A DNA stretch of 64,000 nt from Schleiferiaceae bacterium (GTDB lineage: Bacteria > Bacteroidota > Bacteroidia > Flavobacteriales > Schleiferiaceae): positions 372,001 to 436,000 of the forward strand of contig JAGYIN010000001.1 of the NCBI GenBank assembly GCA_018402665.1. The letters run 5' to 3'. The notes under the pieces were generated by a model. That model made no database searches and was not told the origin of the DNA. It saw nothing but the letters and a program-made list of their open reading frames with translations. This document shows, in pieces, positions 781 to 6,035 of the stretch (within the stretch, counting starts at the first letter, position 1; each line of letters opens with the position of its first letter). Both the position numbers and the translations under genes were made by a program.

Positions 781-1485
781 TTATTGCTCGAAGAAACCTA
801 AACTCATTCCGAATTTAAACGTGATGCTTCCATCGAGTGCATTGCGCTCTGCAGGGTTCGCTTCTAAATATTCCGCAGTGTAGTTAAAACCTTCCACGTT
901 AGAAACGCCAAATCCATTGTAATAGATACCTAGGTTGTAAAAACTTTTCAGCGACCTACGAATTCTCCAACCAAAACCAACGGCATACGTGTAGGTATGA
1001 CCGGTGCCTGGATACAAGGCAATTTCCTCAGGGTATTGCGCATTCGTATTTAAATGCGGCTGGTAGGTCAATGCACCAACTCCAACATGAATAAAGGGGG
1101 TATGGTGGTTGCGTTGATTGTATTTTCCAAACGGGATAAAATGCACATTCGTAAACAGGTTTACATTTAAAAGATCCGTATCAACCTGGTAATCTCGCGT
1201 TGCGTTCCCATGCAGGTTATCGTGACTGTAGATACTTCCATAGTTTACATCTGCACCTACGCTGAGCAAACTGTTGAAATTATATTTGAGTTGAGTCCCT
1301 AATCCAAAGCGAGCCTCTTGGGTCAATGCCCCTAAACTTCCTCCGTTTACATCACCGAGGTAATTTTGTGTCATTGCATATCCACCCCACTCTAAAAAGG
1401 CAGTTGTGCGCTGTGCTGTTGCATGAATAGTCGTTCCTGCTATTGCCACCACAAGGGCGATGTGTTTTATATTCTTCATAATCAT
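781..1485 (-). CDS. Small outer-membrane beta-barrel protein (DUF6089-like)
   Basis: A 234-residue protein with a signal peptide (basic MIMKNIKH, hydrophobic core, cleavage near ATAQ) followed by alternating, aromatic-rich beta strands. It ends in a strand, ITFKFGMSLGFFEQ, as is usual for outer-membrane barrels. It resembles the small porin-like/DUF6089 proteins common in Bacteroidota, whose function is mostly unknown. Its ATG overlaps the TGA of yaaA in an ATGA, so the two are co-transcribed and probably translationally coupled. A hairpin terminator follows. The barrel call is based on composition and periodicity, not on a recognised catalytic motif. Confidence 0.7.
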   Translation of the reverse strand: MIMKNIKHIALVVAIAGTTIHATAQRTTAFLEWGGYAMTQNYLGDVNGGSLGALTQEARFGLGTQLKYNFNSLLSVGADVNYGSIYSHDNLHGNATRDYQVDTDLLNVNLFTNVHFIPFGKYNQRNHHTPFIHVGVGALTYQPHLNTNAQYPEEIALYPGTGHTYTYAVGFGWRIRRSLKSFYNLGIYYNGFGVSNVEGFNYTAEYLEANPAERNALDGSITFKFGMSLGFFEQ

Positions 1486-2249
1486 TGTGAATCCCTCAAA
1501 AATACCAATTTATTATCGTCAAACGTGTGCATTCTGTACCCCATTTCACTGAAGGATGTTAACGCCTCCATTTTTTTTATATTGTTTTCTAAACACCAAC
1601 GTACAAAAGCACCTCGTGCCTGCTTACTAAAGGCAGACACCGACTTTAATTGACCGTTTTTCATTTGCTTAAAATCTATTTGAACATACGGGTGCTTCAC
1701 GTTTTTCCAATCAATGGCCTTACTGTATTCGCCACTGCAGGCGTCTAAAACGAAGGATGCATCTGTAGCATTGACCCATTGGGTTAAAATAGGACGCCAC
1801 AAACTGTATAAGTTTTTATGCGCTGCTACTTGCAACCGGGATTGCATTTCAAGGCGGTAGGGCACAATATACGTGGCACTAGAAACGACACCATACAATG
1901 CACTCATTACGTACAAAGACCGCAGAGCATTTGCCTTTCCTTCAGCAGTCAATTCCGCCGAATTAAGAAATTTAAACGCTTCACCATTGTAGGCCGTTAA
2001 CCCTTGCAAGCCACTGGAGACATTAATGAACGATTCCGAATTTTCCAACCATATTTTTTCCACGGCGGGCCAAAGCGCTTCACTAACTTTAAATAGTGAA
2101 CGTGCCTCGTCCGAAGGTAACTGTTGGACCGCCTTCGCTACCGCTGTAGTTATTTCGGGGAACGCACAAGAAGGCGCCGTGCTAGGCACAGGTTGGCGTT
2201 CATTAGACATTCCTTTTGATGGAGACAGCAGAATCAATGGATCTTTCAT
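1482..2249 (-). CDS. yaaA: YaaA family peroxide-stress protein
   Basis: A 255-residue protein of the YaaA (DUF328/UPF0246) family. The N-terminal signature LLSPSKGM is at residues 7-14, and the typical later blocks ALYGVV, YRLEM, LWRP and FVLDACSGEYSKAID are present. In E. coli YaaA lowers intracellular free iron and limits oxidative DNA damage under peroxide stress; the molecular activity is DNA-binding-like and not fully settled. Length matches the family. It is the first gene of a unit with the beta-barrel gene (4-base overlap) and is divergent from the lipoprotein pair starting at 2315. Confidence 0.9.
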   Translation of the reverse strand: MKDPLILLSPSKGMSNERQPVPSTAPSCAFPEITTAVAKAVQQLPSDEARSLFKVSEALWPAVEKIWLENSESFINVSSGLQGLTAYNGEAFKFLNSAELTAEGKANALRSLYVMSALYGVVSSATYIVPYRLEMQSRLQVAAHKNLYSLWRPILTQWVNATDASFVLDACSGEYSKAIDWKNVKHPYVQIDFKQMKNGQLKSVSAFSKQARGAFVRWCLENNIKKMEALTSFSEMGYRMHTFDDNKLVFLRDSQ

Positions 2250-2314: not shown

Positions 2315-3691
2315 ATGAAGAAAATGAAGAATTTTGGATTGATTTTGATTTTGACACTCGCATTAAGTGGGTGTCAAGGTGCGAAGTACCACTTTAAATC
2401 GGGGAAAAAGTATGCCGAAGCTAGCATGCTCAAGGAAAGCGTCACTTCATATAAAAGAGCGATCGACCGCAAGCCGAACAAGGTCAAATACCGCATTGCT
2501 ATGGAAGACGCCGGTAGTGCTTTGCTTGAAGAGCTTTTCACAAGCTACCGCTTCGCAGACGGCAATGACAGTGCGTCAATCTATAAGTTTCGCGATGCCG
2601 AAAAATGGCGCAACTATTTAGTTCCTTACATGAATACGAGCCGCTATGAAGGCTTTTACGATCAGGATTACAGGGACCAATTGGGCCGCTTTCTAGCACA
2701 GAAATACGAACGCTCGAAGAAATGGATCCGTACGCGGGAATACGAACGCGCTCAAAAGAACCTTTTGGAAATCAAGGAATTGGACCCGGATTACAAAGAC
2801 GTTGGGGAACTTCTTGAGTTTGCAGAGGTCGAACCCCTGTATGTCGCAGCGCTTGAACTTTTAGAAAATGCGGAGTATCGCAATGCATACGACTTGCTGC
2901 AACCCATACTAAAGAAATATCCAAAGCAGAGCCTCCTGCGCAAATTAGAGGAACAAGCGATTGAGCGCGGAAAGTACAGACTAGGCATCATTTCAGACCC
3001 AAACATTACCGGTAGTGAGGCAACTATGTCAGCCGCATTGCAGAGTGCAGTGATTTCTTTAATCCAACGAGAAAAAGATCCTTTTCTAGAACTTTTGGAC
3101 CGCACCAATTTTGATTTACTACAACAAGAGCAAGAAGCGATCATCAATGGCTCAACAAACGAATCGGCTGTAACGCAGGAATTGTTGGCGGCCGATGGCT
3201 ACCTGAAGGTGATCATTACTCATGCCCACGAGGACGAAGGAAAGCTTTTTGAAGAGACGAAAAAGGGATGGGAGAAATACTACGTTACTGAGAAAAATGA
3301 GGAGGGTGAAGAGGTGAAAAAAGTGGAATATAAAAAAGTGACCTTCACAGAGTATCACAAACGCAATGAAGCCAGTTACGACATGCAGGTCGCTTTAGTT
3401 GAAAGAGCCACATCTAAAATTTTATGGACCCAGACCTACCACCAAGATTTCGCTGATGAAGTTCATTACATCCAATATGCCGGATCAGGCGATTTATATT
3501 CGGGCAGTTGGCGCTACCAACACAAAGCGCACCCGAGCGATAGACGATCTAATGATAGCGGTCGGTTGAATCGTTTACGTAAAGGAAATAAACGCGTTAA
3601 AAGCACTTCGTCCATGAGGAAAGATGCCGTTGGAATACTGGCTAAAAAAGCAGCAGATTACGTTCTAGCTCAAAAGTTGATACGCGAATGA
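2315..3691 (+). CDS. Lipoprotein with TPR-like region and CsgG-like domain
   Basis: A 458-residue predicted lipoprotein. The ATG at 2315 is preferred over an upstream TTG because it gives a clean signal peptide with lipobox LSGC (Cys20). Residues about 25-225 are helical with TPR-like repeats (AEASMLKESVTSYKRAIDRKPN and similar). From about residue 225 the sequence resembles the periplasmic CsgG/HfaB fold: a LGIISD strand, the segment FLELLDRTNFDLLQQEQ, a GYLKVIITHAH strand and the segment VALVERATSKILWTQTYH. The C-terminal region is basic. It overlaps the next lipoprotein by ATGA, so the two probably act together at the envelope. The CsgG relation is my inference from motif order, and there is no sign of curli subunits nearby. 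Confidence 0.72.
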   Translation: MKKMKNFGLILILTLALSGCQGAKYHFKSGKKYAEASMLKESVTSYKRAIDRKPNKVKYRIAMEDAGSALLEELFTSYRFADGNDSASIYKFRDAEKWRNYLVPYMNTSRYEGFYDQDYRDQLGRFLAQKYERSKKWIRTREYERAQKNLLEIKELDPDYKDVGELLEFAEVEPLYVAALELLENAEYRNAYDLLQPILKKYPKQSLLRKLEEQAIERGKYRLGIISDPNITGSEATMSAALQSAVISLIQREKDPFLELLDRTNFDLLQQEQEAIINGSTNESAVTQELLAADGYLKVIITHAHEDEGKLFEETKKGWEKYYVTEKNEEGEEVKKVEYKKVTFTEYHKRNEASYDMQVALVERATSKILWTQTYHQDFADEVHYIQYAGSGDLYSGSWRYQHKAHPSDRRSNDSGRLNRLRKGNKRVKSTSSMRKDAVGILAKKAADYVLAQKLIRE

Positions 3692-4968
3692 AAAAACTAA
3701 GGATACTCTTCGTTGCTGTCTTGCTTTGGGGTTGCGGCACTAAAAAAAATGCGCCGCCTTCATGGATTTCAAGCAAGCCTATTGATCCCAGCGGCATCTA
3801 CGTCTATGGAATGGGCAACAGCTTCATTAATCCAAACGTTCCCTATCAACAGGCCGCCCGTTCTAATGCTTTAGCAGATCTGGCGCAAGAAGTTCAAAGC
3901 GAGATTTACGACGAAACCAAACTCTTACAAAAAGAAGATGCTGGGGGTTTTAATAGCGCGTTTGAATCGAACACTACATCAACCTCATCCCTTCGCTTAG
4001 ATGATTACGAACTGGTAGAAAGCTATGCAGACGAATTGCGTTACTACACACTATATCGTCTCGATCTTGAATCTTTTCTGCGCAAAAAAGCACTACAAGA
4101 TGCTGCAGCTATGGAATGGATCAATACTAAGGTCTTTGAGGCAAAAGATGCTAACCTTTCAGCGTCGTCTCGCTTAAGCGCTCTTGTTGACGCTTTAGAC
4201 AAAGCCCACGACTTTCAATTGTTTGGAGACATCCAATACAGAACGAAATTAAATGCGAGTGCCACCGAAGCACTGCGGTCGATTGAAAATGTTATCGGAG
4301 CGATCGATTTGCTTCCTGTGAAGCCGGCTTATCTAGGTTTACCTGCAACATTTCGCGCACAGTATGAACAGCCGAAAGAAGGTCAAGAGCAGATTCCTCT
4401 TGCCCTTTCTTCAAGCTCGGGACAATTTATGCTTCAAGAACAAACCATTCAATGCATACATACAGGCTCTGAAACGCGCGTTACCCTCTTCTTTGCCTGG
4501 GACTGGGATCGTATTCAATCTGCCCATACGGAAACAAAAAATTGGCTTAAAAATAAAAGCCAATGGGGGGCGTCAATCGCAGTACACTTTGAAAAGCCAA
4601 CGGTGTACATTGAAAGTAATGGAGCAGATGAATTGGTCAATGAGCTAGAAAAGAGTCTATCAAAAGACTTTCGTATTGGCGGTCTCAAATCTGCACAACT
4701 GGTTCTAGAGTGTAATGGTCAGATGGCTTCAGAAACTGCAGGAGTTGGGCAGGTTCGTGATTCGATGGTGCGCCACAAAGTTCGCATCGAAGTCCAATTT
4801 TCACTCTTGAGCACTGAAAACAACTCTATGCTTTGGAACAGCACAACCATATCTGGAACAGCCATTTCTGCCTCACAAGAAACCGCCTTAAACAGTGCCA
4901 AATCTGAATTTATAGACGATTTCAACTACCTACTCCTACCTCAGCTGCTGCGAAGTTTAGACTTTTAA
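3688..4968 (+). CDS. LPP20-family lipoprotein
   Basis: A 426-residue lipoprotein with a short signal peptide and lipobox LWGC (Cys16). The first part contains the LPP20-type pattern: a PPSWISSKP opening, a YGMG segment and AARSNALADLAQEVQSEI, a helix of the kind seen in LPP20 and other CsgG-associated lipoproteins. The C-terminal part, from about residue 330, again looks like a mixed alpha/beta domain and ends in a helix. Its start overlaps the stop of the TPR/CsgG-like lipoprotein by four bases, so the two form an operon. Function is unknown; the arrangement suggests a two-lipoprotein outer-membrane complex. Confidence 0.75.
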   Translation: MKKLRILFVAVLLWGCGTKKNAPPSWISSKPIDPSGIYVYGMGNSFINPNVPYQQAARSNALADLAQEVQSEIYDETKLLQKEDAGGFNSAFESNTTSTSSLRLDDYELVESYADELRYYTLYRLDLESFLRKKALQDAAAMEWINTKVFEAKDANLSASSRLSALVDALDKAHDFQLFGDIQYRTKLNASATEALRSIENVIGAIDLLPVKPAYLGLPATFRAQYEQPKEGQEQIPLALSSSSGQFMLQEQTIQCIHTGSETRVTLFFAWDWDRIQSAHTETKNWLKNKSQWGASIAVHFEKPTVYIESNGADELVNELEKSLSKDFRIGGLKSAQLVLECNGQMASETAGVGQVRDSMVRHKVRIEVQFSLLSTENNSMLWNSTTISGTAISASQETALNSAKSEFIDDFNYLLLPQLLRSLDF

Positions 4969-4997
4969 ATTATACTATGCGTGCATAGTATAATTTA
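4966..4997. promoter_or_regulatory. Perfect 15-bp palindrome, likely MarR operator
   Basis: Two perfect 15-base arms (4966-4980 and 4983-4997) around a two-base centre GT. The site is AT-rich and lies 25 bases before the ATG of the MarR-family gene. Length and symmetry fit a winged-helix dimer operator used for autoregulation. The arm overlaps the stop codon of the LPP20-like gene. It lacks a T-run, so terminator function is less likely. Confidence 0.6.
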
Positions 4998-5022: not shown

Positions 5023-5475
5023 ATGAAACCACAAGAAACCTTTGACTTTCAAATCCGGAAATCCTGGATTGCTTTGTCAAAAATGTACAATGAGCAAGTA
5101 GCCCAGTACGGTCTCACCGTCGCAATGGGATTTGCATTATTGAACATTGATATTAAAAACGGAACCCCTTCCACTTCCCTAGGACCGAAAATGGGCATGG
5201 AAAGCACCTCATTAAGTCGTTTACTCAACAGCTTAGAAAAACAGGCCTTGATTGCAAGAGAATCGAATCCAAACGACGGTCGCAGCGTTTTAATAAAATT
5301 GACGAAGGAAGGCTTAAAAATGCGCAACTACAGTAGGCAAGCGGTATTGGATTTTAACCATCAGGTATTGGCTGAAGTTAGCGAAGAAGATGTACGCGGT
5401 TTCTTCAAAGTAATGGCCACTGTGAGCGAGGTAGTCGATACGCATAGGGCGGAAGAAACCCTCAGGATGACCTAG
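5023..5475 (+). CDS. MarR family transcriptional regulator
   Basis: A 150-residue winged-helix regulator of the MarR family. The DNA-binding part covers about residues 45-105: a recognition-helix region MESTSLSRLLNSLEKQALI followed by the wing RESNPNDGRSVLIKLT, whose D-x-R pattern is diagnostic. Flanking helices supply the dimer interface. Close relatives in Flavobacteria often stand beside fatty-acid beta-oxidation operons, but here the next genes are an InsA-like protein and acetyl-CoA synthetase. A perfect palindrome directly upstream (4966-4997) is a plausible autoregulatory operator, and a terminator follows at 5532. The ligand is unknown. Confidence 0.88.
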   Translation: MKPQETFDFQIRKSWIALSKMYNEQVAQYGLTVAMGFALLNIDIKNGTPSTSLGPKMGMESTSLSRLLNSLEKQALIARESNPNDGRSVLIKLTKEGLKMRNYSRQAVLDFNHQVLAEVSEEDVRGFFKVMATVSEVVDTHRAEETLRMT

Positions 5476-5612: not shown

Positions 5613-6035
5613 ATGAATGAAGTCAAACATTGTCCTAAATGTTCCAGCGCAAGCTATGTGAAAAGTGGGATAATTAAAGAGCGTCAACGCTACCGTTGCA
5701 AAGAATGCAACTACTATTTCACAGTACAAAAATTAGGCAAACGCATCTCTGATTATTACGTCGTTAAAGCCCTTCAGCTCTATATAGAAGGGGTGAGTTA
5801 TCGTGAAATTGAACGCATTCTAGGTATCTCACATGTAAGCGTAATGAATTGGGTCAAAACCTATAAAATCAAGAGACCCCAGCTTCAGTACAATCACAAA
5901 CCCAGTTTTGAAGTGCTTGAGCACGAGCAGCTTTTGGAACGCATGAAATCACCAAAGTATTTAGAGCAGAAAGGCCTACTTATTTCGGAAGTAGAAGGTA
6001 AATTTTTTGTCCTAAATTGGATTCAGAACCACTAA
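5613..6035 (+). CDS. InsA-like zinc-ribbon/HTH protein (transposase-derived)
   Basis: A 140-residue protein with an N-terminal zinc ribbon (Cys7, Cys10, Cys29, Cys32 in CPKC and CKEC knuckles) of the IS1 InsA type, then a helix-turn-helix at about residues 48-85 (ALQLYIEGVSYREIERIL, then SHVSVMNWVK). The C-terminal 50 residues resemble no transposase. No InsB/DDE catalytic partner follows and I see no terminal inverted repeats, so this looks like a domesticated DNA-binding protein rather than an active IS. Only 11 bases separate it from the acs ATG at 6047, so the two are probably co-transcribed; regulation of acetate activation is a guess from context. Confidence 0.72.
   Translation: MNEVKHCPKCSSASYVKSGIIKERQRYRCKECNYYFTVQKLGKRISDYYVVKALQLYIEGVSYREIERILGISHVSVMNWVKTYKIKRPQLQYNHKPSFEVLEHEQLLERMKSPKYLEQKGLLISEVEGKFFVLNWIQNH

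Follow-up and report, generated by a model that had tools for sequence, protein, structure and literature searches.

A conserved lipoprotein pair with CsgG-type and LPP20 domains and a third, unlinked lipoprotein in a marine Flavobacteriales genome

Lipoproteins with LPP20 domains and with CsgG/LpoB-type domains recur in flagellar rings, in amyloid and polysaccharide export, and in cell-wall control. In Helicobacter pylori, HP1454 and HP1456 (Lpp20) are encoded in one operon and the first domain of HP1454 resembles HP1456; FlgP and FapH bind both proteins in two-hybrid assays, and deletion of hp1456 left motility, bacitracin resistance and motor structure unaffected (PMC11756786). A further protein, HP1457, is described as a homologue of LpoB in a second report (PMC11394524), and a third has the Vibrio proteins FlgT, FlgO and FlgP forming the outer-membrane H ring or supporting it (PMC6504787). 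Here we describe two intact, adjoining plus-strand genes, P1 and P2, from a marine Flavobacteriales genome (Schleiferiaceae bacterium, assembly GCA_018402665.1), which lie in a 64,000-nucleotide stretch of contig JAGYIN010000001.1 (positions 372,001 to 436,000; hereafter the window), together with a third lipoprotein, P3, encoded elsewhere in the same genome. We consider it roughly 45% probable that P1, P2 and the unlinked P3 constitute one envelope assembly of periplasm-facing outer-membrane lipoproteins, most likely scaffold-like or ring-like and not an open pore. New in this analysis are the third component, which lies outside the window and was missed by an original prediction made from the window alone, the tightness with which the genes are linked, and the case against a simple CsgG pore. 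The features of the pair, in window coordinates, are as follows.

2315..3691, plus strand: P1, a 458-residue lipoprotein with a signal peptide and Cys20, TPR-like repeats (about residues 23-219) and a CsgG/LpoB/PelC-type alpha/beta domain (about 220-458)
2972..3688, plus strand: C-terminal CsgG/LpoB-type domain of P1, with the conserved motif DPF..L.DR......EQ.....G at residues 255-290, where the predicted local distance difference test (pLDDT) score of the monomer model is low
3688..3691, plus strand: ATGA, four bases common to both open reading frames (ORFs), in which the stop codon of P1 overlaps the start codon of P2
3688..4968, plus strand: P2, a 426-residue lipoprotein with Cys16, an LPP20 domain, a helical/beta middle region and a C-terminal LptE/CsgG/PelC-like domain
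3757..4065, plus strand: LPP20 (SHS2-like) domain of P2, residues 24-126, assigned by Pfam, with a conserved insert (77-106) that is disordered in the monomer model
4591..4965, plus strand: C-terminal domain of P2, residues 302-426, with a predicted LptE/CsgG/PelC-type fold from VIA-align structural matches

At the level of domains, the parallels that we favour are the H. pylori lipoproteins HP1454, HP1456 and HP1457 and the Vibrio ring proteins. HP1457 would resemble P1, the multidomain secreted HP1454 would resemble P2, and the single-domain LPP20 protein HP1456 would resemble P3, a correspondence by domain type only; unlike that set, P1 carries TPR repeats, and P2 has a lipidation cysteine and an LptE/CsgG/PelC-like C-terminal domain. 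FlgT, FlgO and FlgP of Vibrio, and FlgP of the Campylobacter basal disk, share the LPP20/SHS2-like and CsgG-type folds and the association with the outer membrane, and FlgT (3w1e, 8z5n) appears to have both domains in the same order as P2, but no counterpart to the TPR-CsgG fusion of P1 appears in the accessible parts of the ring-protein literature. No flagellar gene was found among the scanned neighbours of the pair; the genome was not searched for flagella.

A gene pair kept together and a third lipoprotein

Two lipoproteins overlapping by four bases had been proposed in the original prediction, and both ORFs are present as described, sharing ATGA at 3688-3691 and each beginning with a lipoprotein signal (P1 ...LALSGC, Cys20; P2 ...VLLWGC, Cys16). 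The overlap suggests that translation of the two genes may be coupled. The lipidation cysteine lines up in 55 of the 56 P2 rows and in 55 of the 57 P1 rows; the two P1 rows without it are fragments cut by contig ends. Both genes are single copy in their own genome, which is about 89% complete, and the ratio of nonsynonymous to synonymous substitution rates (dN/dS) is 0.04-0.07 for P1 and 0.11-0.16 for P2 (four of eight comparisons, with unsaturated dS), pointing to strong purifying selection on both.

A scan of named genomes with an alignment yielded 56 loci, of which 55 are testable (the 56th, L131, is cut by a contig end); nearly all are labelled Flavobacteriales, Schleiferiaceae, Cryomorphaceae, Crocinitomicaceae or Bacteroidetes, and one comes from an isolate (Phaeocystidibacter luteus). 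P2 lies directly 3' of P1 on the same strand in 55 of the 55 testable loci, the joint conservation on which the original prediction had staked itself. The four-base overlap recurs in 39 of them and the remainder span -163 to +17 bases, as measured with the first possible start codon taken. The two genes are kept together despite wholly different flanks, with a saccharopine-dehydrogenase gene on one side in 32 loci and yaaA in Schleiferiaceae-type loci. This adjacency and the low dN/dS show that the pair is not a product of chance. At locus L141 of a more distant genome, G145, the gene just ahead of a P2 relative encodes a CsgG-domain protein of 206 residues (41.7 bits to Pfam CsgG against a cut-off of 20.8), so that the pairing of a CsgG domain with an LPP20 protein recurs without the TPR half. 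P1 occurs without an adjacent P2 in G059, G034 and G035, the first of which retains the divergent yaaA and has no P2 there. A scan of viral contigs with P1 returned no relative. A DUF4476 protein is encoded immediately ahead of P1, in the same orientation, in L095, L097, L100, L102, L115, L121, L132 and L136 (assigned by Pfam for L100).

P3, an LPP20-like lipoprotein of about 190 residues, was found by clustering the neighbouring ORFs of related loci. Clustering alone placed it at 30 loci. A profile search of the 41 divergent loci L094-L134 showed that P3 immediately follows P2, in the same orientation, in 33 of them, with gaps of -14 to +111 bases. Two of the other eight (L099, L131) are cut by contig ends and six, from relatives that carry their P3 gene at another site, have no P3 within the stretch examined; at L065, L067 and L068, P3 is close by on the opposite strand. 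The P3 of our genome (G000:C1:354428-354982, minus strand; 1489-2043, minus strand, of locus L135) has 184 residues and a lipobox cysteine, shares 52% identity with the P3 of L097, and lies 19.3 kb upstream of P1. It is thus retained though unlinked, as it is in other genomes (e.g. G031 and G026). Profile comparison relates P2 and P3 over the LPP20 region (94.4% probability). Pfam LPP20 is matched by 10 of 23 P3 relatives at E<=0.1 (best 1.2e-4), those scored individually falling below the cut-off, and own-genome P3 has no Pfam LPP20 match. Its gene is flanked by a glycosyltransferase-like and a cytochrome-peroxidase-like ORF, labels given by reading the translations only. Many P3-bearing genomes also encode a further, more remote relative of P3 (about 190-210 residues, with E values around 1e-20 to 1e-29), including G026, G031, G049, G101 and G105.

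Among 119 relatives sampled for co-occurrence (matches at E<=1e-10), 60 have a match to P1, 51 to P2 and 53 to P3, one counted P3 match being a fragment (G020). P1 is present in 50 of the 51 P2 genomes and P3 in 48, with all four exceptions coming from genomes of 58-74% completeness; beyond the own genus, both proteins accompany P2 in 27 of 27 genomes. An even sample of 198 Bacteroidota-level genomes was also scanned, in which strong full-length P1 was seen in G000 and G101 only, P2 below E 1e-60 in 8 genomes and P3 below E 1e-60 in 5; P1 matches in 49 of the 198 are mostly partial, to the TPR or CsgG domain. In G101 the genes follow one another in the order DUF4476-P1-P2-P3. These distributions bear on the explanation that P1 and P2 are unrelated lipoproteins in one operon, conserved through shared regulation or slow rearrangement. 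Six own-family loci also retain yaaA and other neighbours, so that some of the synteny is merely old, but the pair persists where the flanking genes differ completely and P3 co-occurs even where it is unlinked, and we judge this explanation to be improbable.

Predicted folds and the question of a pore

On its own, window P1 exceeds the Pfam cut-off of neither CsgG nor a TPR family, and it matches neither CsgG nor LpoB. When 57 members of its family were scanned singly by Pfam at E<=0.01, CsgG was found in 40 (best 2.7e-12), LpoB in 28 (best 5.8e-7) and TPR_2 in 27, and several relatives exceed the Pfam CsgG cut-off. The AlphaFold2 model of P1 (mean pLDDT 87.0) consists of helical repeats at about residues 23-219, followed by an alpha/beta domain at 220-458, and the top six Foldseek matches of the model are all CsgG entries (E 2.5e-5 to 1.4e-4). 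Residues 220-458 align by VIA-align with DUF330 2iqi (Z 12.2, root-mean-square deviation (rmsd) 3.2, 130 aligned), CsgG 4q79 (Z 11.3, rmsd 6.0, 164 aligned), PelC 5t11 (Z 11.0, rmsd 2.7, 117 aligned) and FlgT 3w1e (Z 11.0, rmsd 3.4, 136 aligned). The model thus predicts a CsgG-type periplasmic fold for the C-terminal half of P1, and the combination of TPR-like repeats with a CsgG-like segment, suggested in the original prediction, is upheld, the label "CsgG-like" drawing on the relatives and the predicted structure and not on the window sequence alone. The 14-3-3 chains that fill the VIA-align list for the TPR half were taken as reflecting a generic helical arrangement.

P2 exceeds the Pfam cut-off for LPP20 (PF02169; 28.1 versus 25.9 bits, residues 24-126), which is matched at E<=0.1 in 16 of 16 aligned relatives. 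In its AlphaFold2 model (mean pLDDT 84.5), residues 22-138 align with H. pylori Lpp20 (5ok8; Z 9.8, rmsd 3.6, 103 aligned), supporting both the LPP20-type domain that had been proposed and a predicted SHS2-like Lpp20 fold for the N-terminal domain. Residues 302-426 match LptE-type 3bf2 (Z 11.1), CsgG (10.4) and PelC (9.9). The alignment with FlgT 3w1e covers residues 37-426 (189 aligned, Z 9.9, rmsd 23.3), each of the two domains matching but in a different arrangement, and that with HP1454 4kzs covers residues 35-423 (214 aligned, high rmsd), again with similar domains arranged differently. Sequence searches of the PDB with single P1 or P2 gave nothing credible; the P1 profile returned TPR proteins only, and the P2 profile returned nothing credible, with no sequence-level match to the H. 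pylori HP1454/Lpp20 chains.

One segment in each protein is conserved yet poorly predicted in the monomer. Residues 261-290 of P1 (mean 2.75 bits vs 2.17 for the whole protein) have low pLDDT, and residues 77-106 of P2 (2.30 bits vs 1.82 overall), with an invariant Phe92, are of low pLDDT or disordered. Conserved segments of this kind often become ordered on binding, and these two may do so as well. In FlgP, the ring is reported to be formed by an insert whose position in the SHS2 fold corresponds to that of P2 77-106 (PMC12222027).

In surface lipoproteins of Bacteroidota, acidic residues near the lipidated cysteine act as an export signal, as described in an earlier report (PMC5080379). Two acidic residues at positions +2 to +5 were found in 0 of 55 P1, 0 of 55 P2 and 0 of 23 P3 rows. 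Surface exposure was rejected for all three on this ground, and we infer, because the export signal is missing, that they face the periplasm, anchored in what we assume to be the outer membrane.

The fold of P1 also occurs in PelC, LptE, LpoB, PqiC and FlgT, and therefore implies no pore. In a pore, P1 oligomers would form an outer-membrane beta-barrel through which a substrate is secreted, and P2 and P3 would gate the barrel or help to assemble it. In favour of this, CsgG is the top structural match of P1 and the commonest domain family of its relatives, and the motif register agrees with Escherichia coli CsgG over 50 columns, at only 2.9% probability. P1 differs from E. coli CsgG, however, in its TPR half, its constant LPP20 partner and its insert at the place of the first CsgG membrane hairpin, which is on average 33% charged (minimum 20%, 56 sequences) versus 14% in E. 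coli CsgG. At this place (304-352) there are 0 membrane-strand-compatible windows in window P1 versus 4 in E. coli CsgG, and at the second hairpin place there are 2 in each; of the 57 members of the P1 family, 40 have 0-1 compatible windows at the first place and 17 have 2-4. The membrane-strand rule is crude and sequence-based, with one positive control. A separate 10-residue strand count is non-discriminating in that soluble LpoB also yields windows, so the argument relies on the charge and on the lack of compatible windows at the first hairpin. By this crude rule, window P1 could accommodate the second membrane hairpin and not the first, and would fall short of two amphipathic hairpins per protomer.

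The Pfam CsgG model has no match in the whole own genome, at about 89% completeness, and there are no curli proteins among the four neighbours scanned (PorG/DUF6089-like, YaaA, MarR and InsA-like), in keeping with what had been stated for the neighbourhood; curli families were not searched genome-wide. With no curli gene among these neighbours and no CsgG match in the genome, a curli system was rejected, and the charged hairpin insert, together with the same lack of a genomic match, led us to reject a CsgG-type secretion pore as the leading reading and to rate it as highly doubtful. On sequence grounds, a CsgG-type barrel appears unlikely for window P1 and not impossible for the P1 family. The proposal of a secretion or assembly complex not yet described is accordingly retained in part: assembly is plausible, and our searches of the open-access literature found no description of the P1-P2-P3 set, but secretion is unsupported, given a fold shared with non-pores and a charged insert at the hairpin.

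A proposed envelope assembly and its closest alternatives

The reading that we favour builds on what the analysis shows, namely lipoprotein signals, domain folds (from sequence families and predicted structures), adjacency of the pair and co-occurrence of P3. P1, P2 and P3 would associate physically at the periplasmic side of the outer membrane, in an assembly built from two recurring folds, LPP20/SHS2 and CsgG/LpoB/PelC. The conserved low-pLDDT segments (P1 261-290, P2 77-106) could mediate oligomerisation, the TPR half of P1 could serve as a docking arm, and the whole might have an envelope-integrity or scaffold role.

The main rival to a scaffold is an LpoB-like regulator, in which P1 would reach a peptidoglycan synthase through its TPR arm and LpoB/CsgG-type domain and stimulate it, with P2 and P3 as accessories. 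E. coli LpoB, the activator of penicillin-binding protein 1B (PBP1B), is likewise an outer-membrane lipoprotein with a related domain, and LpoA of E. coli joins a TPR-like domain to another domain. The LpoB matches in 28 of 57 P1 relatives are in line with such a role, as is the numbering of the H. pylori LpoB homologue HP1457 (PMC11394524) next to HP1454 and HP1456, which share one operon (PMC11756786). However, CsgG is both commoner and stronger in the P1 family (40 of 57 members, best 2.7e-12 vs 5.8e-7), a direct comparison with E. coli LpoB aligned 19 columns only (17.9% probability), and no penicillin-binding protein gene is linked in the neighbourhoods examined. P1 further differs from LpoB in its TPR repeats and its constant LPP20 partner, and we regard regulation of this kind as rather unlikely.

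In another arrangement, the lipoproteins would encircle the periplasmic opening of an outer-membrane barrel whose gene lies elsewhere, and would control the export of polysaccharide or lipid. According to a structural report, twelve PelC lipoproteins assemble into a ring in the periplasm beneath the PelB barrel, with TPR domains of PelB docking in the ring (PMC12141448), and chains of the PelC dodecamer match both P1 (Z 11.0) and P2 (Z 9.9). PelC, LptE, PqiC and DUF330-type lipoproteins share the general fold of the C-terminal domains of P1 and P2, but each of these consists of a single domain, the other genes of their systems are not seen here, and no polysaccharide synthase or export barrel is conserved beside our genes, making a collar of this type an unlikely prospect, more so than the regulator.

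Several observations weigh against a single assembly of P1, P2 and P3. P2 is missing from 10 of the 60 genomes with P1 and from 5 of the 53 with P3 (in one of the latter, P2 was probably lost at a contig end); three genomes of another family (f22) have P2 and P3 with no P1 beside them; and two of the P3 matches counted, in G025 (E 3e-26) and G045 (E 5e-12), are weak or at the level of paralogues. The co-occurrence counts are uncorrected for phylogeny, with same-genus genomes counted many times. In 18 listed genomes of family f3, which belongs to the same order, P2 and P3 are absent and there is one weak partial match to the P1 TPR region; the order can therefore do without the set. Many outer-membrane lipoproteins have the CsgG/LptE/PelC fold, which, like the widespread LPP20 fold, implies no function by itself. 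Finally, HP1454 of H. pylori showed no interaction with Lpp20, and deletion of Lpp20 gave no motility or bacitracin phenotype (PMC11756786).

Flanking genes and wider meaning

The pair is flanked by the divergent yaaA (1482-2249, minus strand) on the P1 side and by a MarR-family gene (5023-5475, plus strand) after P2. Between P2 and the MarR-family gene, at window positions 4967-4996, lies a near-perfect palindrome, AAATTATACTATGC-GT-GCATAGTATAATTT, whose core, CTATGC-NN-GCATAG, stands at the same place in 8 of 8 related loci examined, in places with one change, and has no other copy in the window with up to 2 mismatches; it is probably a MarR operator. Adjoining yaaA, positions 781-1485 (minus strand) encode an outer-membrane beta-barrel protein that resembles PorG of type IX secretion (NCBIfam match at E 6e-14, short of the family's cut-off). 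An orphan protein at 5613-6035, with an InsA/IS1595-type zinc ribbon and a helix-turn-helix, is a possible transposase remnant or transposase-derived regulator.

In a broader and doubtful view, a three-lipoprotein ring or scaffold of LPP20/SHS2 and CsgG/LpoB folds would exist in Flavobacteriales independently of flagella, and the Vibrio H-ring and Campylobacter/Helicobacter basal-disk proteins would be specialised offshoots of an older assembly. The locus also illustrates that the membrane hairpins should be checked before a CsgG-like fold is taken to mean a secretion pore. No function is settled for small sets of lipoproteins like HP1454-HP1457, and P1, P2 and P3, as a fixed set that is gained and lost together, offer a defined and testable three-part system in another phylum.

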